Origin: Blattamonas nauphoetae
Taxonomy: Eukaryota; Preaxostyla; Oxymonadida
Reading direction: 5' to 3'
Length of the DNA: 64,000 bases
NCBI GenBank assembly: GCA_033064195.1
Contig: JARBJD010000286.1
Coordinates: 31,556 to 95,555, forward strand
Part shown: in pieces, positions 37,057 to 64,000 of the stretch
How positions within the stretch are numbered: the stretch's first letter is position 1
Layout: each line of letters opens with the position of its first letter
Position numbers and translations under genes: made by a program
The notes under the pieces: generated by a model
Databases searched by the model: none
Told to the model about the DNA's origin: nothing
The model's input: the letters and a program-made list of their open reading frames with translations, nothing else

Positions 37057-38130
37057 TCACTTCTTTTTCCCTCTCTTAGGGAATAGGTTCCCACCCAACT
37101 CATCAATAACCCATTTTCCCAACGAGGAACAATATTGATGGCCAAAGTCATACTCCTCGCATCGGAAGTGAGCCTCCATTTCATCAGAAAACCCGTCTTC
37201 ACACAGCTTGACGACGACCCGTTGTCCGCGTTTCTGAATAGCTGGATTAGCTATCTTCAAGTGGGTGAGTCCATCATTCATTTCCAGAAGGAGTCTGTTT
37301 CTCAAGGCGTCTGTTTCGAAGAATTCAAGATAGTTTATGCAGGTCAGAGCAAGTGGAGAAGATGACAAGGCGTACTGGGTCATCTGTTCCAGGAAGGGTG
37401 AACATTGCACAATCTTTCCCAAGAATTTCGGGAAATGGATTGACTTGATGGAATCTGGGATTCGCCGCAGATTTGCGTAGATGAACTCCAGAAACGGTTC
37501 AATGGGATGGAAGAAATTGTCCAAAAATGTTTCTTTGAAGGTGTCCATCGAAATCTGTCTGTCTTTGCAGATTTGTGGAATGATGCGAGGATCAGAACAA
37601 ATCAGGATGTTGCACATAATGCTGACCATATAAAAGCTGGATTTGGCCAACAGAAGCATTTTCTGCTGATAGAATGTTTGTGGGAGAAGTGTGAAGAATC
37701 CTGTTGCGAGAAAATCGAAAAATGACGTTGGAGCAACAAGGAACACAATATGATTGAGAAGCGACAATGTCGAGTTGAGGAGCTCCTCGTTGGATGATGT
37801 GAGGAGCGGAATAATTGATTCTGTGAAACCAGAACAAGAGCCATCGGATGAAGGGACAAGCTTGAAGAGAACGTCTTCGGAAGTGAAGCCGTTCTGGTTT
37901 TGAGGTTTGATCCCCTCAAGAAGGGCACATGCGTGTTTGGTTTCTTTCTCATCCAGATGGTTTCCTTCCTTGATGAAGCCAACAAGTGACAGGAACGGTG
38001 GTGAGGCTGCTTTCATTGTGGTGATGGCGCCTGGTTCAGTGAGAAAAAACAAGGGAGTCATATCACCCTGGCCATCTCGGTTGATGGACTGGATGTAACT
38101 GTGTTGACTGGAGTTGGAATTGTTTCCCAT
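37057..38130 (-). CDS. ARM/HEAT-like helical protein (357 aa)
   Basis: An intron-free frame from ATG at 38130 (MGNNSNSS) to the stop at 37057. The product is mostly helical, with leucine-rich repeats of the LLTSSNEELLNSTLSLLNHIVF type and a lysine-rich C-terminus (PKRGKKK). It belongs to the same family as the fragment in element A (3672-4121). The open frame can be read further upstream to 38334, but that part lies in transposon sequence, so the Met at 38130 is preferred. Between this Met and its TATA box (47307-47315) now lies a 9-kb hAT element. Its expression may therefore be lost or driven from the transposon. A damaged second copy begins at 63717. Confidence 0.65.
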   Translation of the reverse strand: MGNNSNSSQHSYIQSINRDGQGDMTPLFFLTEPGAITTMKAASPPFLSLVGFIKEGNHLDEKETKHACALLEGIKPQNQNGFTSEDVLFKLVPSSDGSCSGFTESIIPLLTSSNEELLNSTLSLLNHIVFLVAPTSFFDFLATGFFTLLPQTFYQQKMLLLAKSSFYMVSIMCNILICSDPRIIPQICKDRQISMDTFKETFLDNFFHPIEPFLEFIYANLRRIPDSIKSIHFPKFLGKIVQCSPFLEQMTQYALSSSPLALTCINYLEFFETDALRNRLLLEMNDGLTHLKIANPAIQKRGQRVVVKLCEDGFSDEMEAHFRCEEYDFGHQYCSSLGKWVIDELGGNLFPKRGKKK

Positions 38131-38475
38131 GGAGAAATTCACTCGGACAGGGTTGTCGGGCCCTTTGAGTTGTCTTAAGACGTGGAAAAATGACTTAGTA
38201 GTAAGAAGTAGGGAAAAATGACTTAGTAGTAAGTCGCTCTTTTCGAAATCACTAGGCTTGTCTGACCGGCCGAAAGTGGCGGTCAGTGTCAGTGGACAAT
38301 TTTTCAAAGGGGAAGATCTCACCTCTCCATACAATACTTAATATTTAAGGGAAACAGGCAAGAAATCAGTTAGTAATGTCATGATTTGTGTACTGAAGCT
38401 AGGCTTGTCTGACCGGCCAAAAGTGCCGGTCAGTGTCAGTCCGAAATTTTTCAAAGGGTCAGATCTAACCTGATC

Positions 38476-39607
38476 ATGAAATCACGTGCTATGAACAAGA
38501 AACTAAGACATTTACAGATATGCATGTTGGAAGCTGCTTCTGGATACCGTTTGGCACTCTGGTTTCAATTATTTGTTCGGCTCTACGTTCCTCGTTCGTT
38601 GGAACTGATTTTTTCTCACCATCTCTGTCTTATTCTCACTTTTCTTCAGATAATCGACCTCAATACGGGATTCAGGACTAATCGGAGCCGAAACACACAT
38701 CTTGATGACGTCTCCTCAATCTTTTGCTCTCATCGTGAATCGAAGTCACAGGACAGTTTCTAGGTCTTCTTTTCGCATTTCAATCTCTTTTTTGTTGATT
38801 TCAGACTTCCATTCATTGCGACGTCATCAGTCCATCTAATCAAGTCTCTTTTCCTCCTTTTTCTACCTCTCAGACTTTTGTTGTCCCCGTTCACTCCTCT
38901 CCATCATATCTCTATCGAGTTTGACTCTCTTGTCTGCTTTCCCTCTGCCCTGACGCCACTTCGGATTTCTGCCACTGCTGCTCTCTAGCACTTGTGGGAT
39001 ACTGACCAACATGCGATTGAAGTTATCCCTCCTGCTGTTTATGCCAGGAAAGTCCAAATTCCCTCCGAAACGACCTTCCTCGACAAGATCCTACTCATCA
39101 GACAGAACTTGATGTTGCACCAATGCCGGCAATCGTCCTCATCAGGTGTTGCCGTGGCCGACGACACAGCAACAATCGAAGGGCATGAGTTTCTCCCAGC
39201 CACTCTCTAGTCGAAAGGGAACCCAACACCAACACACCCATAATAGAACGGCAGCGTCGACAGCCTTCAACACACTCCAAACCCAACCATCGTCTCTCCA
39301 CCGCCTTCTCAGTTCGGCTTCCTCGATCTGTCTGAGCACTCTGACACTGTTCCTCACTCACCGCACTTGTCAGATGGACTCCCCACATCGGATGGGCTTC
39401 TCCCCTTCTAACGCAGCAGAGAAGAAGTTGACAGTTGTGGAGTATGTGGATGGCTGTGTGCAGGGAGTGCATCTGATGTTCATCCACGTACCCTCCAATC
39501 TTTTCGTTGTCACAAGTGTCAGTCAGCAGCTGTTGGAGAAATCATCTGGTCTTGTCACAGACATTCTCCTTTCTCCACAATCAGTCGGCTGGAGAAGATC
39601 CCGTTCA
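38476..39607 (+). other. Cargo region of element C, left arm (unidentified gene pieces)
   Basis: Several plus-strand open stretches alternate with stops, as if exons or decayed coding sequence. Examples are a 38-codon stretch starting IIDLNTGFRT after a TTCAG acceptor-like site, and a longer one ending GVHLMFIHVPSNLFVV...LLSPQSVGW. I do not recognise the gene. The mirrored copy lies at about 62260-63370 on the minus strand. Confidence 0.35.
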
Positions 39608-39610
39608 CTA

Positions 39611-41243
39611 GTCACCTAACAATCCGGGAGTAAATAACTATTCGGTAGTTTTTTGTTTGTTCACAACGTTTTGATTGATCGTGCTTTTTTTATGGTTGCG
39701 ATCATGCCGAAGGCAACGTTCACCCGTCACGAACTCATACTCCTCTCTCTTCGAGCAGAGTATCGCCACATACATCACGAAGGAGAGCGATGGGCAAGAA
39801 TAGCATTTGACTTCCAAATCAAACACAAATGCATCATTGAATCAGGTCTGGTTGGAAATCGAAAATTTTATGCAGCTTTTGGACAACTGAGAAAAGGATA
39901 CCACTGTGGACGCGTTGGGAATCCAGGACGGCTGAACCCATCGGAAATCGACCAACTCACAGCTGATATTGTTGAAAAACTCGAAAACAATGAAGTTCTC
40001 ATGGTCCACGATGTGAACGCTATGGTTTGGAGCTGTTTCATTTTTAACTTCAAATAGGCAAACAATATACTTGAGAGATCAGAACGATCGAGACCAGAAA
40101 AAAACCAGTATCTCCTGATTGGGCTAGATGGTTTTAAGTCGATCAACGATCCTCCACCTAACTCGTCCCCTCGCACTACCCGTCGCGAGAGCAAGACACA
40201 CCAATCAACAAATCCTCCGGCCATTCCTGCAACGCTGGAGTGACCTCAACACTTTTCGTCAATACCACCCATCGATGGTATTTAATTTGGACGAAACATA
40301 CTTCTCCTTGAAGCGGTCTCGCATACCTAATATTGTAGCACTACGGGAGACTGTCCACCCAATCATCCCAGAGGCGTTAGAGATGAGTGGTCTGACATTC
40401 ATCCTTCTTGTGAACGCAAATGGAGGATCTTGCCTAACCGTTGGGCTGATCAAAAGTGTCAACCTGGCTCCCGAATGGCTGGAATTTAACACAGATCGAC
40501 TGATCTATATGGCGACAGGAGGGGAGAGACTATCAAGGGAACTTTTCGAAACGATTTTCCGAGACATCATCGTTCCAGAGATCGTTTCACGGAGGAGATT
40601 CATCACCTCGGTGCAGCCCCAGCAGTTCTCCAAATGGACTCGGCGTCCATTCACATATCGCGTGAACTCCAACAAATAGCATCCGCAAATTGGATCGACC
40701 TAGTATTTCCTCCTTCGCATACATCGAGTCGGATCCAGCCATTGGATCTTTTCGTAAACTGCAATTTTAAACAAGCCCTCCGTCGAACTCTCCCAACGCA
40801 ATTCCCTCCCACAATCGCTGAAAAAAGGAAACAAGTTGGCAGTTGTATCCGAGGTGCACTTCACGAGGCCCTACACCCCAACACAATCATCGCATCTTTT
40901 CGTGAATCATCAATCTATCCTCCGCAAGTCCAAGAGAAAATTACAGACCTTCCTGAAAACCCACCCGCGTGGGCTATCAATCCCAACGACAGAATTGACG
41001 AGACTCATCCCTACCGCCGTGGGCGGTTTTGTCTGTTCGGAAACAATCACCCTCCACCTTTCGAAATTAACGACATCTGCCAACTTCGAATGATACCCGA
41101 TGACGACAGCGACTCAGACAATTAACATTCTATCAATAATTTTGATCATTTCAGTTTATCAACTCTGTTTTTTTCGTTTTCTGAAAAAAACGTGGGTTCA
41201 AAAAACTCCCAGATACTTATTTACTCCCGGATTGTTAGGTGAC
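39611..41243 (+). mobile_element. Element D: pogo-like Tc1/mariner transposon, left arm
   Basis: Inverted termini starting GTCACCTAACAATCCGGGAG at 39611, with the mirror ending at 41243. TA lies on both sides (39609-39610 and 41244-41245). The 1633-bp element carries one transposase on the plus strand and sits inside element C. Confidence 0.9.
39704..41125 (+). pseudogene. Pogo-like DDE transposase, frameshifted, left arm
   Basis: The reading begins at MPKATFTRHEL with a helix-turn-helix like N-terminus. The DDE-type core shows Asp in NLDET, Asp in MDSASIH, and a final SRIQPLD, the layout seen in pogo/CENP-B-like transposases. The C-terminal tail is acidic (DDDSDSDN). The frame is broken at about 40060, about 40180 and again near 40650, so no full protein is made from this copy as sequenced. 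The right-arm copy is broken at different sites, which points to separate decay or sequencing indels. Confidence 0.8.
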
Positions 41244-41500
41244 TAACTTAATCTCTCAGATTTTATTTAGTTTTGACATTCACATCGAGTGTTGTTTTGT
41301 TGATGAAGACCAGATGAAGTAAAGCGAGAAATGACAATACAATAAGTCCAGTCTTGGTCTATGTTTGCACTGATCATCAAACTTTCACAACGAGATCCGG
41401 ATTCTTCCCTCCAACCTTATCGAGAATCAACTTCAGCACAACATTGAGTTTCTGAATGGACAGAGAGTTGGAATAAGAGATGAGGAACATGTGTGACAAA

Positions 41501-41833
41501 CTACTTCTCTTCTTTTCTGTTCGTTGCTGTTTGATCGATGGTTCTGGACGTTGTTTCGGTTTTGTAAAATCTCACTTCATTGTGGTTGATGGCTAGAGAA
41601 TAGTAGTGGCAGTGGAGATGGAATGAAATGAATGGAGGGAGTGTATCTGCTGTCGTTGTGGGTGGTAAATTCAGATTCGCCTCTGAAATCAAAGATTCGA
41701 CCCTTTTTGGTTGGACTGAGATGGAACGATCACCCCAAGAATATCCAAGAATCAAACCGACGACAAAGATCAATGAGATTTCCACATAAACAGCTAGGAT
41801 AGAACTGGAACTTGACCGTGAAGAAAACGGCAT
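41501..41833 (-). CDS. Small ORF with one membrane segment in element C, left arm (doubtful)
   Basis: 110 codons from ATG at 41833. A Ser-rich start is followed by one hydrophobic stretch (VEISLIFVVGLILGY) and a polar remainder. Its mirror at 60056-60385 is shifted out of frame after about 40 codons. It may be part of a captured gene; the family is unknown. Confidence 0.3.
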   Translation of the reverse strand: MPFSSRSSSSSILAVYVEISLIFVVGLILGYSWGDRSISVQPKRVESLISEANLNLPPTTTADTLPPFISFHLHCHYYSLAINHNEVRFYKTETTSRTIDQTATNRKEEK

Positions 41834-42217
41834 GTAGCAGATCGTACAAGACGATGATGGAACAGCAGAGGCAAGAGATCCTGAGAAAATAGAAGAAAAA
41901 AAACGAGATGAGATGAATTTAGGGATAATAAGGGGATTGATGAGCGAAATGAGAATGAGTCGGATGACATCACAATACCATCTTTTCTTGCATTATTGTC
42001 AAATGAATATGTCGTTGTGATTCATTTCACAGAAGTAGGACTTGCAGCTATAATGGTTTCTGTAAGAGATGACGAATCAGAACGATCATCCGTCCATAAC
42101 TGTTTTGAAGAACCGCACGATCTTCAAATGCCTGTAAAGAAGAGTGAGACGGCCTGAATGAAGTGACAATAATTCAATCCAATCATCTGCAGCAGAAATT
42201 ACGTTGATTTTCATGGG

Positions 42218-42542
42218 CAGGGACCTGAGAAGGATCTGATCGATCAGACCTTTATTGATCAGACCTAATTTTTGTTCTTAACAAACTGTTTCATTAAAAG
42301 AGAGTTTACTTTCGAAAAAAAACTGTGAAATGAGTCTAATCGACCATTTGAGAGGCTATCTGGTCATCATTTATTGTTTTTTGCTTAAATTGAGCCGGTA
42401 CGATGAAGAAAATGAAGTGATAAATTGGAAAAAGAGGAAAATCGATACTCCTAATTAGGAAACGGATCAGACCCCCACTTCTGTGAGGTCTGATCCATGA
42501 TCACACCTCATACAGTAAACTACAGACCTGATCAGGTCCCTG
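42218..42542. mobile_element. 325-bp MITE inside element C, left arm
   Basis: Termini CAGGGACCTGA at both ends in inverted orientation, with an exact 8-bp duplication TTCATGGG (42210-42217 and 42543-42550). There is no coding capacity. Subterminal GGTCTGATC repeats are present. The size and duplication suggest a hAT-type MITE. Confidence 0.9.
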
Positions 42543-42894
42543 TTCATGGGATTTCTGCAAATCTCGGATCAAAATGAAAACACTTCGGAGAAATTGTAAC
42601 TCTGGACTATGGGTTCTGGTATTTCTCCGGTCAGTGACCGTCAGTACTTTTCGGTGAAAACTGACCGGTCAGTGCCGGTCAGACAAGCCTAACTGAAGCC
42701 GTGTGATAGCCTTTTTTCACTTATTTGTACGATTCGTCTCACTTTCATGATCCTTGTGCCTGTCCAGATCATCATCGCCTCGTTTTGTACTATTCTGCGG
42801 AACAAAGGTACTTGGTATGATTCTTTATCACTTTTTCTGTTTTGTTCTCAATTCTCTTCAGAAAAGATCTCGGAAGGTTCTCTATTGATTCATT

Positions 42895-44368
42895 CTAAAT
42901 AAGAATGAGCAGCGATTCTAAACGATATCTGCTCAACAGCAACGAATGCTGAGTGAATCCAACATCCTCAATCGAGACAGTTTCTGACGACATCGAAAGG
43001 AGTGAATCTACTTGAGAGGATTCCAGAATCGACAGAGCCTTTCCTTCTCCAGCAATCTCGATTGTGTTTCCAGCATGCTGCGGAGTGCATTCGCTCATCG
43101 TTCCGGTTTTCATCAAAAGCGACCGTTCACATTGTGCGGGAAGACGAACACTCAAACCACTCACCGATCCACACTCACTTGCCGACACCCAGCACAGCGA
43201 CTCGTCCTTCCCATTCACTCCATCCACCACAATCGATTCTGGATGGTGGATGGGTTCTGTTGTTGTGTCTCCCCAAGCTGCACTCCGTGGCGATTCAGTG
43301 ATGCTCAACGACGACGGAAGGGGAGGCGACAGCGACCACATCGACACGGCACCAACAAAAAGAGATATCGCTGAAAAGTTAACATGATCTTCAAGGAGAA
43401 GACCAGACTGATCGAGATCACATTCGAAATGGAAACGCCTCTCAATTCACTCCCCTCTCTCCCTCCCCCACTCCATTCTCACCACCGTCAGCATCATATC
43501 TCCTTCCGACGAACTTCAAGCAAACTAAATCTCACTGTCTGTGTCCCCATTCAGCCAAAGAAGCGAGCACCTCACCATTTCCCGCTTCGACATCGCGTAC
43601 AAGCAATCAATGGAGTGTCCTCCTTACTGCTAGAACGAAGAGAAAACCTCATTCTCTGGTTTCCTGATCCTGCCCTCACCTCCACCACGATCGACACAAT
43701 CTTGCCAATTTAATCCTCTCCACGGGACACACACGATGCTATCAACAGAAATACACCATTCTGCTTCACAGCACTCGCTTACTGAGATGGCACAAACACA
43801 AAATAGCTCAGCGAAAGGGACCCTCCCTCATTCTTCGAGATGATTTCTTGATCATCGTTGTTTCCAACTCATCCATCCGCTAAAGTCAGCACGATTGTCC
43901 AATCGCACAATCAGAGCGAAAAGGAACCCTTGCTGTCGCGTAAACAGTGACAGAACGCACAAGTGCGACAGTCTGTCAAATCCTTCGTCCACAATAAACA
44001 ACATGATTCTGAGAAACAAGGTGACAAAAATTTCACTTTCCACATTTCTTTTCACTTCCGGCGCTTTCTTGGTTGATGTGATATCTTTCAATTCACCATC
44101 TGGATGGAGATCCTTTCTGAGAGTGTTTTCATCTTTAAGGTTGGAGAAAACCCCCCCTTTCTTTTGTTCTCAAAACGATACTGATGTGTGTGAAGCTGGG
44201 AAGCTTTTGCAAAGGTGCAGATGTTGTCACATCTCTGCTGTTTGAGATTGAAGTTCGTGACTGTATGGGTTCGATCGGTGTCATCAGACGAAAAGAATCT
44301 GAAACAGCTGAATAACAATAAAAGGATATAATCAAATCAAATCTAGAAGAAAAGACACTGAAACTCAT
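42895..44368 (-). pseudogene. Captured gene fragments in element B, left arm
   Basis: Minus-strand open stretches follow one another in different frames: from MSFSVFSSRFDLII at 44368 through LKDITSTKKAPEVKR to a 150-codon stretch at 42895-43347 ending in a Ser/Glu-rich segment. Introns or decay separate them. The gene is not recognised. No transposase motif is seen, so this is cargo rather than the element's own gene. Confidence 0.4.
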
Positions 44369-44559
44369 TCTCTTTCAACTTAATATTTTTCCACTCCGGA
44401 GAAATGGTAACTTTGGATTATGGTTTCTGATATTTCTCCGGTCAGTGACCGTCAGTACTTTTCGGTGAAAACTGACCGGTCAGTGCCGGTCAGACAAGCC
44501 TAGAAATCACAATTCTGAACGAAATTTACCACTTTGTTGTTGAAATGAGATGATAGCAA

Positions 44560-44936
44560 CTGTCAGCGAGGGAATTGGTTTTTGGTTCTTTTTGGTTTTT
44601 CAAAGGGTCGGATCAAAAGGGTGAACGTGAAATGTGTCAATATCATTCAATAAAGACAACGAGGCTCAATAAATCGGAGTGAAAACACAACAGATGTGGT
44701 GCTTCAATTGAATGGATCACTCAAAAAGGCTCAACCAACGGTCAACCATCAAGCAGTGTTTCAGTTTTTACCTTTTCGTGAAAGGACGTTCAATTCAATT
44801 TGCACTCGGGCGTTATTTAGTGTTCATTTTAGTCAAAACAACGATAAATGAGGAAATGGATCACATTGTGTTGAAATGATGAAGATCCGACCCTTTGAAA
44901 AACTGAAAGAACCAAAACCAATTCCCTCGTCGACAG
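44560..44936. repeat. 377-bp inverted-repeat unit beside the hAT transposase, left arm
   Basis: About 55-bp inverted ends (CTGTCAGCGAGGGAATTGG and near-mirror) containing TTTTTCAAAGGGTCGGATC. No target duplication is evident. Short versions of the same CAAAGGG motif occur at the left ends of elements B and C. Confidence 0.65.
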
Positions 44937-44945
44937 AATGAAAAG

Positions 44946-47133
44946 TTAGAATTCCCACTCCGTGGAGTCATCTCCTTGGTACCAAACGTCATCATCACTA
45001 TCTTCTGCATCGTCTGAATCGACCTCGGGTGCGACTGAACCAAGACTTGACGCATGACTCAGAGACAATTCCTGTTTCCCTCCTTCAGTGCAGTGCACTT
45101 TCTAGCTCTTGAAAACGGGTAGCCACTCGGGAGACTTGCTCTGCGGTGAGCGTCTCCGGCCCACACACGGCTCTGAGGATGGCATTCAAATTTTGTTCTT
45201 GCAGTCGGTTTCGCAATCTTGTTTTCACTCTTTCATGGCTGCGAACAGTCTTTCTGCGGATACACTGGTTGTCGGGACGGTTCGATAAATGATTGCAAGA
45301 GTTGTAATGATAGGATAATTTCTCTTGATTTCCATGTCCATAGTGATGAATTGTGCAAGTTCTTTCTCGGAGGTTGTCCTTTTGCCGGATCGTGCGAGAG
45401 TTTGAACGAATACTGTCCATTCTGCTTCGGCATTTCTTTGTGTTATCGTCTGTGGAAAGAGGATCCTAAATTTGTTGAAGAGACGCCCAACGTTTTTGTA
45501 TAGTCACGGTTCATTCCTTGTGATTGTCCGAGTTGTAGAAACTCAAAGCCAATCAAATCGGTAGTTGGTGGAACCTGTCCACCATTTGTTGAAGGACGTT
45601 GTCGAAGAGTATTGTGGCTCGCTCCTCCTGTTGTTTGTTAATGTTTTCATCGAAATGCGGTAGAAGTCCTGCATATTGAATTCGCTTCTCTCTTAAAGTT
45701 TTTGATACGATCTTACAGCCTTTGTCTCCCGTAGCGCGGAGGAAGAATCGATAATGATGTTGTGGAGCTGCCATAAATCAAAAGTTTTGCTCTGCATTTC
45801 GCGAGAGACGAGTGAGAGTGTTTGAAGGAGGGAATCGAGAATGCACATATCAGCAATGAAACTCCAAGACAACCCATTTCTCAATTCCTTCCCTCTGTCA
45901 TCCCCACAAAATTGAGGTTCGTCAAGAAGAAGGATAATAGATCTGAATTCATTGAGAAGAAGCGAGACGCATTTGGAAAGACTTAGCCAACGAGTGACAA
46001 CAACATCCGCCAGAGCATGATGTTGTCCTGGTTCGTTCTTCTGGATTTCTTCAAATCTGGCTTTTCTTTGGAATGATGCGAAATGTATTCGAAAGTTTGC
46101 CGGATTCGTTTCACTAATTCACCGAATATGCCCTTCGTTTGGTGAAGGTGAACAACGATCAGGAGGGCAAGACGATGAGCAGCACAATGTGTCGTTATTA
46201 GGGCAGGAATGAGGTTCCGGAGTTGTGAGGCAACTCCATTGTGGGTCCCGATCATGGTATTGGCACCGTCTGATGCGAATCCCACCATTTTCTGAAGATC
46301 GATTTTGTTTTCTTTTAGGAGGTCCAAAATCACTCCAGTGATCTCATCCGACGTGGATCCGGATGATCCCATTTGTTTGAGTCCAAGAAGATGACATTGT
46401 ATCTCATTCCCGTCCCAATATTGAGCGATAATGGCCAGTTGACTCCGATGCATTACATCTGTCGCCTCATCGACTATTAGCGAGTAACATGGTGCTGAAC
46501 GAAGTTTTTCAAGTGCATCAACATTGAGAATGTCTCCGATGGACCGTGTCAATCGTAATTGGACGTCTCTCGACTTGAATTGTTGTTCAGTTTGCCCAAG
46601 CTCCAAAGATGTTTTATTCCAGAGCGAGATCAAAGATGGTAATTTGGACAGTGCAATTTCTTCTTTCATAAGCCAATGCATTTGATTGATTCGATCTGTC
46701 AGTGTTTTTCCTTCTTTTGCCGACTGCCTCCATCATCCTACTTATTCGATTGTCTTTTGCATGATCAATTTTCCCAGCGATGAATAGTGACTTTGAGTCT
46801 TGACGTGTTGTGAAAGGATCCTTTTAGCATCAACACGGACCGGGGTATGGATAAGATGGTCCATATGTCCATCTCTTTTAGGAATCCACTGATTGCAGAC
46901 CTTACAAATAAGGCCCTTTCCTCCAATATTTTCCCACACAGACTTGCCTGCTTCATTTGGCATGAGATTGTGTTCGGCAAACATTTCATCTAGTATGCTT
47001 TTGGATGGAACGTATTCTTTCTCCTGCAGAATGGGAGGTGTTTGAGAGACTGAACTGCTGGGGTGGATTCAGATTGGAGAGAATCGGATGTTAGTGAGAG
47101 AGGAAGAGCTGTTGGGGAAAGTTTTAGGTTCAT
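44946..47133 (-). pseudogene. BED-finger hAT transposase, broken, left arm
   Basis: N-terminal zinc finger with CKVC and downstream His residues (BED type), DDE-fold region with VDEATD and FASDGAN, HCAAHRLALL, and the C-terminal hAT dimerisation segment TSVSAERLF plus MKRVKTRLRN (the latter two joined across a small frame change). The tail is acidic and ends at TAA (44946-44948). Several frameshifts and stops interrupt it, so it is non-functional as sequenced. Confidence 0.8.
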
Positions 47134-47306
47134 TTCTTGATCAAGACCACAACTTGAGAAAAAGGGACGATTTACTTACTTTTGATTTTTACGACTTAGT
47201 CTTAAGTCACAGAAAAACATAAAAGTAAAGTCATTTTACTTACAACTAAGTCATTCCGACAACCCTGCACTCGGATCACTGTGGCGGAAGAATGGAGCTG
47301 ATCTGG

Positions 47307-47315
47307 CCTTTTATA
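47307..47315 (-). promoter_or_regulatory. TATA box of the ARM-like gene, cut off by hAT (left arm)
   Basis: TATAAAAGG on the minus strand, about 30 bp upstream of the hAT target site. Before the insertion it would have been about 55 bp from the start codon of the gene now at 38130. Confidence 0.5.
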
Positions 47316-47559
47316 GAATGCTTTGTCTGACATACCCAGATATCGAACGATTGGAAACAGTTCTCACATGAACCGAGTAATCTGGCGGTTAGTTTTCAAA
47401 TGATGCATTGTCTGTGAAGTGAAAATGATAAATTGAGAAACACCCCAACGTCAGGAGTTCCGTGCTATTCGGGTTCTTGTTCTGCTTCTATCACAATCGA
47501 GGACTCATTCTTCGCTTGTTGAGAATGGAGTTGTCCCAAATGCCATACCATCTTTCCAC

Positions 47560-47829
47560 TTACGATTGAGAGAGTGTTGAGGCGTTTCTGGTCTTCTTGC
47601 ACAGGGTGAGCTCGTGAACTCGTTGAATGAGTGCTTCAAGGATGTGTTTGTGCTTCGATTTTCCTTTTACCTCCTGTAGGTCTCTCCGGCTGGTAAGAGC
47701 TCGGATAAGAGGAGCCGCTGGGTCATCAGGGCAAAGTTTCGTTAACAGGTCAGCAATCTCTTTGCCGTATGTACTGATGGTTGAGTCGGGTTGACGGTTG
47801 TAATCTTTGACATAACGAGAAATTGTGAT
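47560..47829 (-). pseudogene. 3' fragment of an unknown gene, left arm
   Basis: An open stretch with DYNRQPDSTIS, LLTKLCPDDPAAPLI and HILEALIQRVHEL, ending at a stop at 47560. It is joined directly to the truncated intron of the inositol-phosphate synthase copy, so its own 5' part is missing. It looks helical; the family is unknown. Confidence 0.5.
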
Positions 47830-47863
47830 GGGAGAAGAAGATGCAGAAAAGAAAGAATTGTAC

Positions 47864-47953
47864 CCTTTCGACAGATGTCCCGTGGCTGGCAAATGAAGAT
47901 GAAATAAGATCTTCAGTTTCTTGAACGTGTGAACCCTCAACAGTGAATGACAT
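47864..47953 (-). pseudogene. Copied exon 1 of inositol-phosphate synthase, left arm
   Basis: Starts MSFTVEGS as in the intact gene and keeps the intron donor, but has lost one A before the splice site and has no downstream exons. Confidence 0.85.
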
Positions 47954-48098
47954 TGTGCTGTTTTCTGATCGACCAATAATTTTGGTTACATTGGAGAAAA
48001 ATGAGCCTTTCAACAGGATATCACAAGATAACTGATTGTATAATTGTAATGGAATTCTTTAACGCGATTAGCATTTCCCAGTCACTGAATTCGTTCCA

Positions 48099-52412: not shown

Positions 52413-53821
52413 ATGGAAGATCGATCAACTTAGCAAAGACTATGAAATGAAATTACATCAACTGTGTCAGCAATTGCGTGATTTAGAAATCCAAAGCGTC
52501 GTCTGGAAGACTGGGAAATGGAATTAACAAATCGAGAGATTCGTCTTCTTCAACGAGAACACGCTTACATCACATCATTTCGTTCTCATCTTCTCAAAAG
52601 ATGAATTAACCGAGTCCAGAGGAGATCCAGAGGATAAAATTGATCGACTCTCACGAGATTTCGGAGTTCTTGTATCTATCCTCTCACGATCTAACCGTGA
52701 AATAGAAGCTGCGTTTCCTCAGGCAGACCTTATCTACTGTGCAAACCCTTCCTCTTCAATGCACATTCCACATCATTCTGAACTACAACAGAATTTACAA
52801 GAAGATCACCTTATATTGGGAGCGGGATCCGAAATGATCGCCCACTGAACCATCTGAGTTTGGGCAGAACAAAGAAGCATTATCAAAATCTTCTATGTTT
52901 GATCCAAACACAGACAATCAATCAAATCGTTCACCACAAACATTCAGCCAAATGTTCCCGCACACACACTTACATCAGAATTCGGATCCAACCAGTCTAT
53001 CACTTCTCCATCTGTATTCAAGAGTGACACACAGACCGTCCCATCTGGCCCTATGTTCGGAGCAGGACAAAACATCACATTCATGCCAAACCCTCACTTC
53101 TGGCAAACCGTACGGCCCTTACCAGCAGCATCGGTGATCGGAAAGAAAGAATCCACAACAGGACCCGGCAAAAACTGTCAAACGTCAAAGACACCGAGTG
53201 AAAGACAGATACAAGCAACAGATTCTCAAATCCAGCCGGTCCTTGATCTGTCACAGTTTCCAATGCCACCACCGATCATTCCCCACAATGTCTCTTCAAC
53301 CAATCCCTTGAATTACTGCCACCAAACGAAGGAAACCATGAAACAGCAGAGTCCGGGCTCATTGAAACCAGTCCGAAGATCCCAACAAGCTCAGAACCAA
53401 ACACGGTTGAAGAACAGCCAGTCAATCCTTTCACAATTGACACAAATGTGGACTGCCCAGCAGACATCCAACAGACCAGTGCTCAACTCGTCGATCCTGT
53501 CCCACCGATCGTCCAATCATTCTCAGAGAACAAGCCCGCTCCAGCACAGGTCACCCTCCTCCAGTCCAACAACCTCAGTCACTGTCAGTCCCAATACATT
53601 CTGCTCCAGTTGTAAAAGCTCCTCAGAAATCTGCCAAAAGAAAAATACAAAGAAACCAAAACCAAGTCAAAACTACGATTCATTCAATCAGTCTGATGAT
53701 GATGAAGATGAATCCTTTGGCTTTGATCCATCTGCTGATGATGATTTGGGGTACAATGACGACGATGACGACGATTACCCACGATGACGACGATTACCAC
53801 GATGACGACGATTACGATTGA
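52413..53821 (+). pseudogene. Copy of the coiled-coil gene, right arm
   Basis: Two bases are missing just after the ATG relative to 28426, and further frameshifts follow. CAG stands at the codon that is TAG in the 27578 copy. Confidence 0.85.
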
Positions 53822-53965
53822 TGGAACGAATTCAGTGACTGGGAAATGCTAATCGCGTTAAAGAATTCCATTACAATTATACAATCAGTTATCTTGTGAT
53901 ATCCTGTTGAAAGGCTCATTTTTCTCAATGTAACCAAAATTATTGGTCGATCAGAAAACAGCACA

Positions 53966-54055
53966 ATGTCATTCACTGTTGAGGGTTCACACGTTCAAGA
54001 AACTGAAGATCTTATTTCATCTTCATTTGCCAGCCACGGGACATCTGTCGAAAGG
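53966..54055 (+). pseudogene. Copied exon 1 of inositol-phosphate synthase, right arm
   Basis: Same content and same missing A as the left-arm copy, so that loss came before the inverted duplication. Confidence 0.85.
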
Positions 54056-54089
54056 GTACAATTCTTTCTTTTCTGCATCTTCTTCTCCC

Positions 54090-54359
54090 ATCACAATTTC
54101 TCGTTATGTCAAAGATTACAACCGTCAACCCGACTCAACCATCAGTACATACGGCAAAGAGATTGCTGACCTGTTAACGAAACTTTGCCCTGATGACCCA
54201 GCGGCTCCTCTTATCCGAGCTCTTACCAGCCGGAGAGACCTACAGGAGGTAAAAGGAAAATCGAAGCACAAACACATCCTTGAAGCACTCATTCAACGAG
54301 TTCACGAGCTCACCCCTGTGCAAGAGACCAGAAACGCCTCAACACTCTCTCAATCGTAA
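54090..54359 (+). pseudogene. 3' fragment of an unknown gene, right arm
   Basis: Mirror of 47560-47829, with the same junction to the synthase intron. Confidence 0.5.
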
Positions 54360-54603
54360 GTGGAAAGATGGTATGGCATTTGGGACAACTCCATTCTCAA
54401 CAAGCGAAGAATGAGTCCTCGATTGTGATAGAAGCAGAACAAGAACCCGAATAGCACGGAACTCCTGACGTTGGGGTGTTTCTCAATTTATCATTTTCAC
54501 TTCACAGACAATGCATCATTTGAAAACTAACCGCCAGATTACTCGGTTCATGTGAGAACTGTTTCCAATCGTTCGATATCTGGGTATGTCAGACAAAGCA
54601 TTC

Positions 54604-54612
54604 TATAAAAGG
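54604..54612 (+). promoter_or_regulatory. TATA box of the ARM-like gene copy, right arm
   Basis: TATAAAAGG, about 31 bp before the hAT target site TCCGAGTG. Confidence 0.5.
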
Positions 54613-54783
54613 CCAGATCAGCTCCATTCTTCCGCCACAGTGATCCGAGTGCAGGGTTGTCGGAATGACTTAGTTGTAAGTAAAATGACTTACTTTTATG
54701 TTTTTCTGTGACTTAAGACTAAGTCGTAAAAATCAAAAGTAAGTAAATCGTCCCTTTTTCTCAAGTTGTGGTCTTGATCAAGA

Positions 54784-56960
54784 AATGAACCTAAAACTTT
54801 CCCCAACAGCTCTTCCTCTCTCACTAACATCCGATTCTCTCCAATCTGAATCCACCCCAGCAGTTCAGTCTCTCAAACACCTCCCATTCTGCAGGAGAAA
54901 GAATACGTTCCATCCAAAAGCATACTAGATGAAATGTTTGCCGAACACAATCTCATGCCAAATGAAGCAGGCAAGTCTGTGTGGGAAAATATTGGAGGAA
55001 AGGGCCTTATTTGTAAGGTCTGCAATCAGTGGATTCCTAAAGAGATGGACATATGGACCATCTTATCCATACCCGGTCCGTGTTGATGCTAAAAGGATCC
55101 TTTCACAACACGTCAAGACTCAAAGTCACTATTCATCGCTGGGAAAATTGATCATGCAAAAGACAATCGAATAAGTAGGATGATGGAGGCAGTCGGCAAA
55201 AGAAGGAAAAACACTGACAGATCAGATCAATCAAATGCATTGGCTTATGAAGAAGAAATTGCACTGTCAAATTACCATCTTTGATCTCGCTCTGGAATAA
55301 AACATCTTTGGAGCTTGGGCAAACTGAACAACAATTCAAGTCGAGAGACGTCCAATTACGATTGACACGGTCCATCGGAGACATTCTCAATGTTGATGCA
55401 CTTGAAAAACTTCGTTCAGCACCATGTTACTCGCTAATAGTCGATGAGGCGACAGATGTAATGCATCGGAGTCAACTGGCCATTATCGCTCAATATTGGG
55501 ACGGGAATGAGATACAATGTCATCTTCTTGGACTCAAACAAATGGGATCATCCGGATCCACGTCGGATGAGATCACTGGAGTGATTTTGGACCTCCTAAA
55601 AGAAAACAAAATCGATCTTCAGAAAATGGTGGGATTCGCATCAGACGGTGCCAATACCATGATCAGGACCCACAATGGAGTTTGCCTCACAACTCCGGAA
55701 CCTCATTCCTGCCCTAATAACGACACATTGTGCTGCTCATCGTCTTGCCCTCCTGATCGTTGTTCACCTTCACCAAACGAAGGGCATATTCGGTGAATTA
55801 GTGAAACGAATCCGGCAAACTTTCGAATACATTTCGCATCATTCCAAAGAAAAGCCAGATTTGAAGAAATCCAGAAGAACGAACCAGGACAACATCATGC
55901 TCTGGCGGATGTTGTTGTCATCGTTGGCTAAGTCTTTCCAAATGCGTCTCGCTTCTTCTCAATGAATTCAGATCTATTATCCTTCTTCTTGACGAACCTC
56001 AATTTTGTGGGGATGACAGAGGGAAGGAATTGAAATGGGTTGTCTTGGAGTTTCATTGCTGATATGTGCATTCTCGATTCCCTCCTTCAAACACTCTCAC
56101 TCGTCTCTCGCGAAATGCAGAGCAAAACTTTTGATTTATGGCAGCTCCACAACATCATTATCGATTCTTCCTCCGCGCTACGGGAGACAAAGGCTGTAAG
56201 ATCGTATCAAAAACTTTAAGAGAGAAGCGAATTCAATATGCAGGACTTCTACCGCATTTCGATGAAAACATTAACAAACAACAGGAGGAGCGAGCCACAA
56301 TACTCTTCGACAACGTCCTTCAACAAATGGTGGACAGGTTCCACCAACTACCGATTTGATTGGCTTTGAGTTTCTACAACTCGGACAATCACAAGGAATG
56401 AACCGTGACTATACAAAAACGTTGGGCGTCTCTTCAACAAATTTAGGATCCTCTTTCCACAGACGATAACACAAAGAAATGCCGAAGCAGAATGGACAGT
56501 ATTCGTTCAAACTCTCGCACGATCCGGCAAAGGACAACCTCCGAGAAAGAACTTGCACAATTCATCACTATGGACATGGAAATCAAGAGAAATTATCCTA
56601 TCATTACAACTCTTGCAATCATTTATCGAACCGTCCGACAACCAGTGTATCCGCAGAAAGACTGTTCGCAGCCATGAAAAGAGTGAAAACAAGATTGCGA
56701 AACCGACTGCAAGAACAAAATTTGAATGCCATCCTCAGAGCCGTGTGTGGGCCGGAGACGCTCACCGCAGAGCAAGTCTCCCGAGTGGCTACCCGTTTTC
56801 AAGAGCTAGAAAGTGCACTGAAGAAGGAGGAAACAGGAATTGTCTCTGAGTCATGCGTCAAGTCTTGGTTCAGTCGCACCCGAGGTCGATTCAGACGATG
56901 CAGAAGATAGTGATGATGACGTTTGGTACCAAGGAGATGACTCCACGGGTGGAATTCTAA
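54784..56960 (+). pseudogene. BED-finger hAT transposase, broken, right arm
   Basis: Same motifs as the left copy (CKVC finger, VDEATD, HCAAHR, SVSAERLF, MKRVKTRLRN); here the C-terminal dimerisation segment reads in one frame. Other frameshifts remain. Confidence 0.8.
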
Positions 56961-56969
56961 CTTTTCATT

Positions 56970-57339
56970 CTGTCGACGAGGGAATTGGTTTTGGTTCTTT
57001 CAGTTTTTCAAAGGGTCGGATCTTCATCATTTCAACACAATGTGATCCATTTCCTCATTTATCGTTGTTTTGACTAAAATGAACACTAAATAACGCCCGA
57101 GTGCAAATTGAATTGAACGTCCTTTCACGAAAGGTAAAACTGAAACACTGCTTGATGGTTGACCGTTGGTTGAGCCTTTTGAGTGATCCATTCAATTGAA
57201 GCACCACATCTGTTGTGTTTTCACTCCGATTTATTGAGCCTCGTTGTCTTTATTGAATGATATTGACACATTTCACGTTCACCCTTTGATCCGACCCTTT
57301 GAAAAACAAAAGAACCAAAACCAATTCCCTCGCTGACAG
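56970..57339. repeat. 370-bp inverted-repeat unit, right arm
   Basis: Mirror of 44560-44936. Confidence 0.65.
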
Positions 57340-57529
57340 TTGCTATCATCTCATTTCAACAACAAAGTGGTAAATTTCGTTCAGAATTGTGATTTCTAGG
57401 CTTGTCTGACCGGCACTGACCGGTCAGTTTTCACCGAAAGTACTGACGGTCACTGACCGGAGAAATATCAGAAACCATAATCCAAAGTTACCATTTCTCC
57501 GGAGTGGAAAAATATTAAGTTGAAAGAGA

Positions 57530-58999
57530 ATGAGTTTCAGTGTCTTTTCTTCTAGATTTGATTTGATTATATCCTTTTATTGTTATTCAGCTGTTTCAGA
57601 TTCTTTTCGTCTGATGACACCGATCGAACCCATACAGTCACGAACTTCAATCTCAAACAGCAGAGATGTGACAACATCTGCACCTTTGCAAAAGCTTCCC
57701 AGCTTCACACACATCAGTATCGTTTTGAGAACAAAGAAAGGGGTTTGGGTTGGTTTTCTCAACCTTAAAGATGAAAACACTCTCAGAAAGGATCTCCATC
57801 CAGATGGTGAATTGAAAGATATCACATCAACCAAGAAAGCGCCGGAAGTGAAAAGAAATGTGGAAAGTGAAATTTTGTCACCTTGTTTCTCAGAATCATG
57901 TTGTTTATTGTGGACGAAGGATTTGACAGACTGTCGCACTTGTGCGTTCTGTCACTGTTTACGCGACAGCAAGGGTTCCTTTTCGCTCTGATTGTGCGAT
58001 TGGACAATCGTGCTGACTTTAGCGGATGGATGAGTTGGAAACAACGATGATCAAGAAATCATCTCGAAGAATGAGGGAGGGTCCCTTTCGCTGAGCTATT
58101 TTGTGTTTGTGCCATCTCAGTAAGCGAGTGCTGTGAAGCAGAATGGTGTATTTCTGTTGATAGCATCGTGTGTGTCCCGTGGAGAGGATTAAATTGGCAA
58201 GATTGTGTCGATCGTGGTGGAGGTGAGGGCAGGATCAGGAAACCAGAGAATGAGGTTTTCTCTCGTTCTAGCAGTAAGGAGGACACTCCATTGATTGCTT
58301 GTACGCGATGTCGAAGCGGGAAATGGTGAGGTGCTCGCTTCTTTGGCTGAATGGGGACACAGACAGTGAGATTTAGTTTGCTTGAAGTTCGTCGGAAGGA
58401 GATATGATGCTGACGGTGGTGAGAATGGAGTGGGGGAGAGAGAGAGTGAATTGAGAGGCGTTTCCATTTCGAATGTGATCTCGATCAGTCTGGTCTTCTC
58501 CTTGAAGATCATGTTAACTTTTCAGCGATATCTCTTTTGTTGGTGCCGTGTCGATGTGGTCGCTGTCGCCTCCCCTTCCGTCGTCGTTGAGCATCACTGA
58601 ATCGCCACGGAGTGCAGCTTGGGGAGACACAACAACAGAACCCATCCACCATCCAGAATCGATTGTGGTGGATGGAGTGAATGGGAAGGACGAGTCGCTG
58701 TGCTGGGTGTCGGCAAGGAGTGTGGATCGGTGAGTGGTTTGAGTGTTCGTCTTCCCGCACAATGTGAACGGTCGCTTTTGATGAAAACCGGAACGATGAG
58801 CGAATGCACTCCGCAGCATGCTGGAAACACAATCGAGATTGCTGGAGAAGGAAAGGCTCTGTCGATTCTGGAATCCTCTCAAGTAGATTCACTCCTTTCG
58901 ATGTCGTCAGAAACTGTCTCGATTGAGGATGTTGGATTCACTCAGCATTCGTTGCTGTTGAGCAGATATCGTTTAGAATCGCTGCTCATTCTTATTTAG
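57530..58999 (+). pseudogene. Captured gene fragments in element B, right arm
   Basis: Mirror of 42895-44368, with different frame breaks. The gene is not recognised. Confidence 0.4.
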
Positions 59000-59350
59000 A
59001 ATGAATCAATAGAGAACCTTCCGAGATCTTTTCTGAAGAGAATTGAGAACAAAACAGAAAAGTGATAAAGAATCATACCAAGTACCTTTGTTCCGCAGAA
59101 TAGTACAAAACGAGGCGATGATGATCTGGACAGGCACAAGGATCATGAAAGTGAGACGAATCGTACAAATAAGTGAAAAAGGCTATCACACGGCTTCAGT
59201 TAGGCTTGTCTGACCGGCACTGACCGGTCAGTTTTCACCGAAAAGTACTGATTTGTCACTGACCGGAGAAATACCAGAACCCATAGTCCAGAGTTACAAT
59301 TTCTCCGAAGTGTTTTCATTTTGATCCGAGATTTGCAGAAATCCCATGAA

Positions 59351-59673
59351 CAGGGACCTGATCAGGTCTGTAGTTTACTGTATGAGGTGTGATCATGGAT
59401 CAGACCTCACAGAAGTGGGGGTCTGATCCGTTTCCTAATTAGGAGTATCGATTTTCCTCTTTTCCAATTTATCACTTCATTTTCTTCATCGTACCGGCTC
59501 AATTTAAGCAAAAACAATAAATGATGACCAGATAGCCTCTCAAATGGTCGATTAGACTCATTTCACAGTTTTTTTTCGAAAGTAAACTCTCTTTTAATGA
59601 AACAGTTTGTTAAGAACAAAAATTAGGTCTGATCAATAAAGGTCTGATCGATCAGATCCTTCTCAGGTCCCTG
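59351..59673. mobile_element. MITE inside element C, right arm
   Basis: Mirror of 42218-42542, with the duplication CCCATGAA (59343-59350 and 59674-59681). Confidence 0.9.
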
Positions 59674-60055
59674 CCCATGAAAATCAACGTAATTTCTGCT
59701 GCAGATGATTGGATTGAATTATTGTCACTTCATTCAGGCCGTCTCACTCTTCTTTACAGGCATTTGAAGATCGTGCGGTTCTTCAAAACAGTTATGGACG
59801 GATGATCGTTCTGATTCGTCATCTCTTACAGAAACCATTATAGCTGCAAGTCCTACTTCTGTGAAATGAATCACAACGACATATTCATTTGACAATAATG
59901 CAAGAAAAGATGGTATTGTGATGTCATCCGACTCATTCTCATTTCGCTCATCAATCCCTTATTATCCCTAAATTCATCTCATCTCGTTTTTTCTTCTATT
60001 TTCTCAGGATCTCTTGCCTCTGCTGTTCCATCATCGTCTTGTACGATCTGCTACA

Positions 60056-60385
60056 TGCCGTTTTCTTCACGGTCAAGTTCCAGTTCTATCCTAGCTGTTT
60101 ATGTGGAAATCTCATTGATCTTTGTCGTCGGTTTGATTCTTGGATATTCTTGGGGTGATCGTTCCATCTCAGTCCAACCAAAAGGGTCGAATCTTTGATT
60201 TCAGAGGCGAATCTGAATTTACCACCCACAACGACAGCAGATACACTCCCTCCATTCATTCATTCCATCTCCACTGCCACTACTATTCTCTAGCCATCAA
60301 CCACAATGAAGTGAGATTTTACAAAACCGAAACAACGTCCAGAACCATCGATCAAACAGCAACGAACAGAAAAGAAGAGAAGTAG
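60056..60385 (+). pseudogene. Mirror of the small membrane-segment ORF, right arm
   Basis: The ATG at 60056 begins the same frame as 41501-41833, but a 1-nt indel moves the C-terminal part to another frame. Confidence 0.3.
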
Positions 60386-60641
60386 TTTGTCACACATGTT
60401 CCTCATCTCTTATTCCAACTCTCTGTCCATTCAGAAACTCAATGTTGTGCTGAAGTTGATTCTCGATAAGGTTGGAGGGAAGAATCGGATCTCGTTGTGA
60501 AAGTTTGATGATCAGTGCAAACATAGACCAAGACTGGACTTATTGTATTGTCATTTCTCGCTTTACTTCATCTGGTCTTCATCAACAAAACAACACTCGA
60601 TGTGAATGTCAAAACTAAATAAAATCTGAGAGATTAAGTTA

Positions 60642-62256
60642 GTCACCTAACAATCCGGGAGTAAATAAGTATCTGGGAGTTTTGAACCCACGTTTTTTCA
60701 GAAAACGAAAAACAGAGTTGATAAACTGAAATGATCAAAATTATTGATAGAATGTTAATTGTCTGAGTCGCTGTCGTCATCGGGTATCATTCGAAGTTGG
60801 CAGATGTCGTTAATTTCGAAAGGTGGAGGTGATTGTTTCCGAACAGACAAAACCGCCCACGGCGGTAGGGATGAGTCTCGTCAATTCTGTCGTTGGGATT
60901 GATAGCCCACGCGGGTGGGTTTTCAGGAAGGTCTGTAATTTTCTCTTGGACTTGCGGAGGATAGATTGATGATTCACGAAAAGATGCGATGATTGTGTTG
61001 GGGTGTAGGGCCTCGTGAAGTGCACCTCGGATACAACTGCCAACTTGTTTCCTTTTCAGCGATTGTGGGAGGGAATTGCGTTGGGAGAGTTCGACGGAGG
61101 GCTTGTTTAAAATTGCAGTTTACGAAAAGATCCAATGGCTGGATCCGACTCGATGTATGCGAAGGAGGAAATACTAGGTCGATCCAATTTGCGGATGCTA
61201 TTTGTTGGAGTTCACGCGATATGTGAATGGACGCCGAGTCCATTTGGAGAACTGCTGGGGCTGCACCGAGGTGATGAATCTCCCTCCGTGAAACGATCTC
61301 TGGAACGATGATGTCTCGGAAAATCGTTTCGAAAAGTTCCCTTGATAGTCTCTCCCTCCTGTCGCCATATAGATCAGTCGATCTGTGTTAAATTCCAGCC
61401 ATTCGGGAGCCAGGTTGACACTTTTGATCAGCCCAACGGTTAGGCAAGATCCTCCATTTGCGTTCACAAGAAGGATGAATGTCAGACCACTCATCTCTAA
61501 CGCCTCTGGGATGATTGGGTGGACAGTCTCCCGTAGTGCTACAATATTAGGTATGCGAGACCGCTTCAAGGAGAAGTATGTTTCGTCCAAATTAAATACC
61601 ATCGATGGGTGGTATTGACGAAAAGTGTTGAGGTCACTCCAGCGTTGCAGGAATGGCCGGAGGATTTGTTGATTGGTGTGTCTTGCTCTCGCGACGGGTA
61701 GTGCGAGGGACGAGTTAGGTGGAGGATCGTTGATCGACTTAAAACCATCTAGCCCAATCAGGAGATACTGGTTTTTCTGGTCTCGATCGTTCTGATCTCT
61801 CAAGTATATTGTTTGCCTATTTGAAGTTAAAATGAAACAGCTCCAAACCATAGCGTTCACATCGTGGACCATGAGAACTTCATTGTTTTCGAGTTTTCAA
61901 CAATATCAGCTGTGAGTTGGTCGATTTCCGATGGGTTCAGCCGTCCTGGATTCCCAACGCGTCCACAGTGGTATCCTTTTCTCAGTTGTCCAAAAGCTGC
62001 ATAAAATTTTCGATTTCCAACCAGACCTGATTCAATGATGCATTTGTGTTTGATTTGGAAGTCAAATGCTATTCTTGCCCATCGCTCTCCTTCGTGATGT
62101 ATGTGGCGATACTCTGCTCGAAGAGAGAGGAGTATGAGTTCGTGACGGTGAACGTTGCCTTCGGCATGATCGCAACCATAAAAAGCACGATCAATCAAAA
62201 CGTTGTGAACAAACAAAACTACCGAATAGTTATTTACTCCCGGATTGTTAGGTGAC
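60642..62256 (-). mobile_element. Element D: pogo-like transposon, right arm
   Basis: Same termini as the left copy, with TA on both sides (60640-60641 and 62257-62258). Confidence 0.9.
60755..62167 (-). pseudogene. Pogo-like DDE transposase, frameshifted, right arm
   Basis: The central 224-codon stretch (61198-61872) holds the first catalytic region NLDET unbroken, where the left copy is broken. Breaks here fall at about 62150, 61880, 61340 and 61030 instead. Confidence 0.8.
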
Positions 62257-63716
62257 TAGTGAACGGGATCTTCTCCAGCCGACTGATTGTGGAGAAAGGA
62301 GAATGTCTGTGACAAGACCAGATGATTTCTCCAACAGCTGCTGACTGACACTTGTGACAACGAAAGATTGGAGGGTACGTGGATGAACATCAGATGCACT
62401 CCTGCACACAGCCATCCACATACTCCACAACTGTCAACTTCTTCTCTGCTGCGTTAGAAGGAGAAGCCCATCCGATATGGGGAGTCCATCTGACAAGTGC
62501 GGTGAGTGAGGAACAGTGTCAGAGTGCTCAGACAGATCGAGGAAGCCGAACTGAGAAGGCGGTGGAGACGATGGTTGGGTTTGGAGTGTGTTGAAGGCTG
62601 TCGACGCTGCCGTTCTATTATGGGTGTGTTGGTGTTGGGTTCCCTTTCGACTAGAGAGTGGCTGGGAGAAACTCATGCCCTTCGATTGTTGCTGTGTCGT
62701 CGGCAGGCAACACCTGATGAGGACGATTGCCGGCATTGGTGCAACATCAAGTTCTGTCTGATGAGTAGGATCTTGTCGAGGAAGGTCGTTTCGGAGGGAA
62801 TTTGGACTTTCCTGGCATAAACAGCAGGAGGGATAACTTCAATCGCATGTTGGTCAGTATCCCACAAGTGCTAGAGAGCAGCAGTGGCAGAAATCGAAGT
62901 GGCGTCAGGGCAGAGGGAAAGCAGACAAGAGAGTCAAACTCGATAGAGATATGATGGAGAGGAGTGAACGGGGACAACAAAAGTCTGAGAGGTAGAAAAA
63001 GGAGGAAAAGAGACTTGATTAGATGGACTGATGACGTCGCAATGAATGGAAGTCTGAAATCAACAAAAAGAGATTGAAATGCGAAAAGAAGACCTAGAAA
63101 CTGTCCTGTGACTTCGATTCACGATGAGAGCAAAAGATTGAGGAGACGTCATCAAGATGTGTGTTTCGGCTCCGATTAGTCCTGAATCCCGTATTGAGGT
63201 CGATTATCTGAAGAAAAGTGAGAATAAGACAGAGATGGTGAGAAAAATCAGTTCCAACGAACGAGGAACGTAGAGCCGAACAAATAATTGAAACCAGAGT
63301 GCCAAACGGTATCCAGAAGCAGCTTCCAACATGCATATCTGTAAATGTCTTAGTTTCTTGTTCATAGCACGTGATTTCATGATCAGGTTAGATCTGACCC
63401 TTTGAAAATTTCGGACTGACACTGACCGGCACTTTTGGCCAGTCAGACAAGCTACTTCAGTACACAAATCATGACATTACTAACTGATTTCTTGCCTGTT
63501 TCCCTTAAATATTAAGTATTGTATGGAGATGAGATCTTCCCCTTTGAAAAATTGTCCACTGACTGACCGCCACTTTCGGCCGGTCAGACAAGCCTAGTGA
63601 TTTCGAAAGAGCGACTTACTACTAAGTCATTTTCCCTACTTCTTACTACTAAGTCATTTTTCCACGTCTTAAGACAACTCAAAGGGCCCGACAACCCTGT
63701 CCGAGTGAATTTCTCC

Positions 63717-64000
63717 ATGGAAACATTCCAACTCCAGTCAACACAGTTACATCCAGTCCATCAACCGAGATGGCCAGGGTGATATGACTCCCTTGTTTTT
63801 CTCACTGAACCAGGCGCCATCACCACAATGAAAGCAGCCTCACCACCGTTCCTGTCACTTGTTGGCTTCATCAAGGAAGGAAACCATCTGGATGAGAAAG
63901 AAACCAAACACGCATGTGCCCTTCTTGAGAGGGATCAAACCTCAAAACCAGAACGGCTTCACTTCGAAGACGTTCTCTTCTGCTTGTCCTTCATCCGATG
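63717..64000 (+). pseudogene. Second copy of the ARM-like gene, 5' part (continues beyond window)
   Basis: Mirror of the 5' third of 37057-38130. Base losses just after the ATG shift the frame, so it does not encode the same N-terminus as sequenced. The window ends inside it. Confidence 0.75.

Follow-up and report, generated by a model that had tools for sequence, protein, structure and literature searches.

The right-hand tail of a 64,000-nucleotide stretch of the genome assembly of the oxymonad Blattamonas nauphoetae (contig JARBJD010000286.1 of GCA_033064195.1, positions 31,556 to 95,555; hereafter the window) is a mirror image of itself, and is probably – although this is not proven – a fold-back or false-duplication artefact of assembly at a thinly supported contig tail. 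Comparison of the whole 64-kb window with itself by BLASTN reveals an outer inverted match of 37842-49441 with 64000-52471 (98.9% identity, E = 0) and an inner inverted match of 50236-51012 with 52078-51294 (96.7%), the arms of which lie 281 bp apart (51013-51293). The mirror symmetry is real in the sequence and far beyond chance.

The original prediction described a giant imperfect palindrome with 13-kb arms, a 281-bp spacer and a private stretch in each arm. The symmetry stands, but the arm length does not: position 37842 mirrors the last base of the window and is not a boundary, the outer arm is at least 11.5 kb long, and the symmetry may continue beyond position 64000. The 281 bp do separate the inner arms, and are the loop of the inner repeat rather than the spacer of the whole palindrome. 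The left private stretch (49442-50235) is as described, whereas the right one runs not from 52079 to 52313 but from 52079 to 52470 (392 bp), its part at 52311-52470 being the tail of a duplicated segment. Moreover, the two repeats have different centres, about 50956 for the outer and about 51157 for the inner, which is thus off-centre by about 200 bp, and different substitution rates (7 in 777 positions for the inner repeat and 7 in 11504 for the outer arms; Fisher P = 9e-6), so that one palindrome with private stretches is neither the only nor the simplest description. The inner repeat looks older than the outer arms, unless the centre is just worse sequenced. A single joint at 49441|49442, around a 3,029-bp loop left single-copy (49442-52470), can be read as sufficient for the palindrome; it would explain both private stretches, so that, contrary to the prediction, no departure from a simple fold-back need be assumed at the centre. 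Within the window the loop is unmirrored except for the offset inner repeat, and the last 160 bp of the duplicated segment, which lie at its right end, recur at 28367-28528.

This segment, of 1.78 kb, is present in both arms and in a third copy outside the palindrome. On the left side it breaks off at 49441 and abuts 49442, and the other two copies run approximately 160 bp past this cut. The right copy is flanked at both ends by CATCACAATTT (52305-52315 and 54089-54099), an 11-bp direct repeat positioned as if the segment had been inserted there; an equally long shared string occurred in none of 3000 random placements. Because the segment is full length on the right and has CATCACAATTT at both ends, the right-hand order – the segment with its last 160 bp, followed by the 232-bp stretch found only on this side – looks original. 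The segment (26746-28528 and 52311-54089) is without obvious terminal repeats, and includes the tail of a neighbouring open reading frame (ORF). The left private stretch contains an ORF at 49680-50078 with a Pfam Cyclin match below the cut-off (E = 0.057; 14.3 bits relative to a cut-off of 21), and an apparent continuation of this cyclin-like ORF, in other frames, enters the inner repeat; a cyclin gene may be represented here.

No microhomology is seen at the junction where it can be searched, which is at the ends of the private stretches, the unrearranged flank upstream of the cyclin-like ORF lying outside the comparison; a tandem-repeat scan finds nothing at the joint. A 26-nt imperfect inverted match (49444-49469 with 44844-44869; 84.6%, E = 0.042) starts 2 bp inside the joint and may be due to chance. 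The two private stretches were also considered as diverged homologues. Of 300 shuffles, 4 attain their whole-length alignment score, which comes from a gap-ridden alignment; at the outer end, 117 of 4000 random pairs attain the score of the first 25 bases and 709 of 2000 shuffles that of the first 40; and at the inner end the alignment comparison finds no similarity. We took the shuffle tests to indicate no clear homology and dropped this idea.

The differences between the outer arms are dominated by insertions and deletions (indels) and are strongly lopsided. The counts depend on scoring, with 14 mismatches and 92 gap openings by BLASTN, 36 and 81 by MAFFT, and 7 substitutions and 96 indels in a gap-friendly global alignment, which we adopted; 75 of these 96 indels are of single bases. 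The substitution rate of 0.06% fits gene conversion, a recent origin, or one locus seen twice. In 78 of the 96 indels it is the right arm that lacks bases, and 64 of the 88 single-letter indels are located in runs of at least three identical bases, which hold only 18.5% of the sequence (P = 3e-28). Longer homopolymer runs (six or more) number 15 in the left arm (37842-47829) and three in the right (54090-64000). Counted per kb from the outer end inward, there are 15, 10, 6, 7, 7, 5, 10, 6, 5, 4, 3 and 0 right-arm gaps, a shift toward the window end with a one-sided P of 0.011 (75 gaps up to 47620). Copies that differ by indels rather than by substitutions are as expected of a false duplication, the indels themselves being, we infer, sequencing errors. 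The arm differences resemble those of uncorrected long reads, and indicate that the two arms are unequally supported by reads.

The polarity of the gaps flips near the joint. Before position 48500 there are 78 on the right and 11 on the left, and after it none on the right and seven on the left (Fisher P = 2.7e-6), with a change point at 48612 that was matched in none of 2000 permutations. This region falls within the duplicated segment, for which the third copy provides a yardstick. Relative to it, bases are missing at 12 sites in the left copy (with two extra) and at 12 in the right (with four extra), a comparison scored differently from the substitution and indel counts given below for the same pairs; eight of the missing sites are in the same runs in both copies, and four of these eight are identical in both arms. 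We also considered, and dropped, the idea that polishing had yielded the true sequence on the inner side of the right arm but not on that of the left, as both copies are short of bases relative to the third, and the right has an odd cluster of changes. Because of the indel pattern of the arms, and because both inner copies are short of bases, the contig rightward of about 48 kb, as far as the window extends, appears to be long-read consensus without short-read correction.

Repeats used for comparison behave differently. The third copy differs from the right copy by 45 substitutions to 22 indels (outer arms versus this pair, Fisher P = 3e-17) and from the left copy by 43 to 20. The corresponding counts are 3 to 0 for an internal repeat of a polyketide synthase (PKS)-like frame, 11 to 4 for a 213-bp inverted repeat, 6 to 0 for transposon ends compared within the left arm, 6 to 3 for the same ends within the right arm, and 2 to 2 for a pair of pogo terminal inverted repeats (TIRs). 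As a control, the PKS frame, of 5,035 amino acids and 15.1 kb, is unbroken. The comparison repeats and the PKS frame elsewhere in the window are thus without the pattern of differences seen between the arms.

A toy model of short-read correction shows what the lopsidedness can and cannot say. When the two arms start with equal accuracy they retain equal leftovers, and runs resembling the data number zero or one in 200 in each of six such settings. When the right arm is much worse before correction, between 68 and 200 of the 200 runs per setting reproduce the data, whether one copy is real or two. The lopsided errors therefore suggest thin long-read support of the right arm, without counting copies.

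We favor a reading in which the outer arms would be a single locus that the contig shows twice. In a region where a natural 0.8-kb inverted repeat lies within a 3-kb loop, a read that folded back or was otherwise chimeric would have fused this locus, at 49441|49442, with its reverse complement. The tail from about 48 kb would have retained long-read consensus errors, the short reads having gone to better copies, and the gradient of gaps toward the window end is as if read support dwindled. The low read support of the tail, its chimeric origin, and the reason that the true continuation is absent from the contig are all parts of this reconstruction. The published description of the assembly also counts in its favor: nanopore reads (R9.4, with shearing to about 20 kb) gave 879 contigs in a pipeline of Porechop, Canu 1.7.1 (corMinCoverage zero), Nanopolish and Pilon (PMC10703272). 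The G+C content of the window, 45.7%, is close to the 44.96% published for this species (PMC10703272), which the standard genetic code of the long frame, the kinds of gene and transposon and the error signature also fit; the argument from the sequence does not depend on this attribution, whereas that from the pipeline does. In one survey, fold-back reads accounted for about 0.55-0.6% of the genomic reads obtained by nanopore sequencing, and typically for 1-4% in another that it cites; the segments of one read shown are separated by about 2 kb, adapter-based tools such as Porechop are suspected of missing such reads, and the reads can tangle assembly graphs (all as described in PMC12870357).

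Several observations weigh against an artefact. Canu is described as including artefact detection (PMC12870357). A real single-copy loop should be polished, and that it seems otherwise requires an extra assumption, either that a better copy lies elsewhere or that the molecules are rare; the 3-kb loop size and the internal inverted repeat fit a real fold-back duplication as well. The correctness of the third copy is assumed, and some gaps relative to it may be true differences, given the approximately 45 substitutions that separate it from the arm copies and the four identical shared gaps. At 52820-52845 on the right, four small changes depart from both the third copy and the left arm and are unexplained. 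The gap gradient is modest, and the left arm is itself imperfect, lacking bases at nine of the 84 indels outside the duplicated segment. Finally, the argument that lopsided errors prove a single copy is weakened by the toy model, which yields them with one copy or with two.

The main rival, which is unlikely but deserves serious weight, is a real and recent fold-back inverted duplication in the oxymonad genome, with arms of at least 11.5 kb. A break would have occurred beyond the cyclin-like ORF, the 3' tail would have folded back, helped by the inner 0.8-kb repeat, and synthesis primed about 3 kb upstream would have copied the whole outer arm, leaving the loop single-copy. One joint is enough here too, the loop contains an inverted repeat with more substitutions, and the arrangement matches that of human inverted duplications, whose reported spacer median of 3,428 bp (PMC3907307) compares with 3,029 bp here. 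The toy model also allows one of two near-identical real arms to stay poorly polished. However, long reads should support two real arms equally, and those anchored in the loop should correct the nearby right arm, yet nine right-arm gaps lie 1.9-3.6 kb from the loop; both segment copies adjoining the loop are short of bases relative to the third; and the junction microhomology that might accompany such an event was not found at the searchable ends of the private stretches. As to origin more generally, the prediction had offered breakage-fusion, template switching, or selection for gene conversion between arms: an event of fold-back type fits, and breakage-fusion or template switching may be its cause, whereas maintenance or gene conversion between the arms is not independently supported, the differences being mostly homopolymer indels.

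It is very improbable that a single true palindrome with arms of about 13 kb existed first and that its two arms afterwards lost or exchanged unlike pieces (392 and 794 bp), as the predicted private stretches suggest. Although the mirror order of the inner repeat matches that of the outer one and two independent deletions from a longer ancestor would suffice, this needs extra events, and the inner arms have 15 times more substitutions per base than the outer arms (P = 9e-6), which is unexpected unless gene conversion left out the centre alone or the centre is worse sequenced. Least credible is a tail-to-tail join of two haplotypes of one locus, a heterotype false duplication with the private stretches as the heterozygous difference: assemblies are known to contain false duplications, caused by haplotypes or by read errors (PMC9516828), but seven substitutions in 11.5 kb leave hardly any haplotype signal, and a chimeric molecule is still required (neither the main text of the genome paper on M. 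exilis, PMC8767320, nor the B. nauphoetae paper, PMC10703272, uses terms for ploidy, haploidy or heterozygosity).

If the tail is an artefact, its genes and transposons on the right are counted twice and broken by errors, and a mirror-image tail with one-sided homopolymer deletions could flag other contig tails in such assemblies. If the duplication is real, fold-back inverted duplication of the human type extends to a distant protist lineage.

The outer arms carry nested transposons, for which four levels had been predicted. Three are supported, and no fourth was found; a DUF4371 remnant, which we take to be hAT-like, and a small TIR element (44560-44936) sit beside the nest rather than within it. 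Because the nest is mirrored in the right arm, which aligns end to end with the left, the insertions either predate the duplication or the arms are one locus. The ORF predicted as an ARM-like gene is present, but the label finds no Pfam match at E values up to 0.01; its mirrored part in the right arm has no single open frame, with 11 indels, ten of them bases missing from the right.

Table. Features of the mirror-image tail and of the related segment outside it (positions are those of the window)
Feature	Position	Strand	Description	Basis
Left outer arm	37842..49441	+	11,600 bp; outer limit is the mirror of the window end	BLASTN, global alignment
Right outer arm	52471..64000	-	11,530 bp; extends past the window end	BLASTN, global alignment
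Central segment, readable as single-copy fold-back loop	49442..52470	.	3,029 bp	Arm alignment stops at 49441 and 52471
Putative novel joint	49441..49442	.	Truncated duplicated segment abuts sequence upstream of cyclin-like ORF	
Left private stretch	49442..50235	+	794 bp; contains ORF 49680-50078	
Inner inverted repeat, left arm	50236..51012	+	777 bp; 7 substitutions and 14 indels relative to its partner	
Inner inverted repeat, spacer	51013..51293	.	281 bp	
Inner inverted repeat, right arm	51294..52078	-	785 bp	
Stretch on right side only	52079..52310	.	232 bp; unmatched elsewhere in the window (E cut-off 0.05)	
Duplicated segment, full copy, right arm	52311..54089	-	Includes the last 160 bp; 95.5% identical to 26746-28528	BLASTN
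Duplicated segment, truncated copy, left arm	47830..49441	+		BLASTN
Duplicated segment, third copy	26746..28528	+	Outside the palindrome; used as yardstick	BLASTN
Transposon with CTAGGCTTGTCTGACCGGC termini	38252..44503	.	AAATCA on both flanks; mirrored in right arm	
Second copy of the CTAGGCTTGTCTGACCGGC-ended family	about 38399-42691		Inside the first; ACTGAAG on both flanks; mirrored in right arm	
pogo/DDE_1-like transposon	39609..41245	+	Inside the second copy; 47-nt TIRs; mirrored in right arm	Pfam DDE_1, E = 9e-5 on 40490-41122
DUF4371 remnant	45986..46732	-	Frames broken in both arms	Pfam DUF4371, E = 0.0011, below cut-off
ORF labelled ARM-like	37057..38337	-	Open in left arm; 165 codons inside the arm	

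Elsewhere in the window, the PKS-like open frame (4892-19999, reverse strand) has 5,035 codons, with KR, dehydratase, PP-binding, thioesterase and other domains in its C-terminal third, the part that was scanned, and its internal stretches at 10314-10961 and 15300-15947 are 99.5% identical. The 213-bp inverted repeat (925-1137 and 4542-4754) spans 925-4754 in all and encloses an uninterrupted Tc1/mariner-like transposase ORF (1402-2733; Pfam HTH_Tnp_Tc3_2 and DDE_3) together with other ORFs. A 33-bp tandem repeat is located within an ORF at 34318-34450. When the Tc1-like transposase (1402-2730) was compared with viral contigs, one stretch matched the pattern and none was confirmed; exact transposon-end strings had no occurrence in viral contigs (two strings) or in genome contigs (one string), and the 11.6-kb left arm had no match to phage records, compared by megablast alone. 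The window contains no Rfam family at gathering score and no tRNA.

Among known systems, the open-access literature searched includes no paper that by its title concerns oxymonad palindromes. Palindromes of the sex-chromosome type have long, near-identical arms that are maintained by arm-to-arm gene conversion; the tail described here shares the long, near-identical arms, but its differences are mostly homopolymer indels and are lopsided to one arm. It also resembles the human inverted duplication with terminal deletion in having inverted copies around a spacer of a few kb, here putatively single-copy; in the human junctions reported, a non-duplicated spacer was present in 21 of 21 sequenced, ranging from 766 to 70,466 bp (PMC3907307). 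In homotype false duplication, as probably here, the second copy differs by read errors and not by heterozygous variants (PMC9516828), although the copies in our case are inverted and adjacent, unlike those described. Nanopore fold-back reads differ in that the structure here lies in an assembled contig, with a 3-kb loop containing a further inverted repeat; like it, they are described as a long arm that recurs as its reverse complement, either directly or after intervening sequence (PMC12870357).

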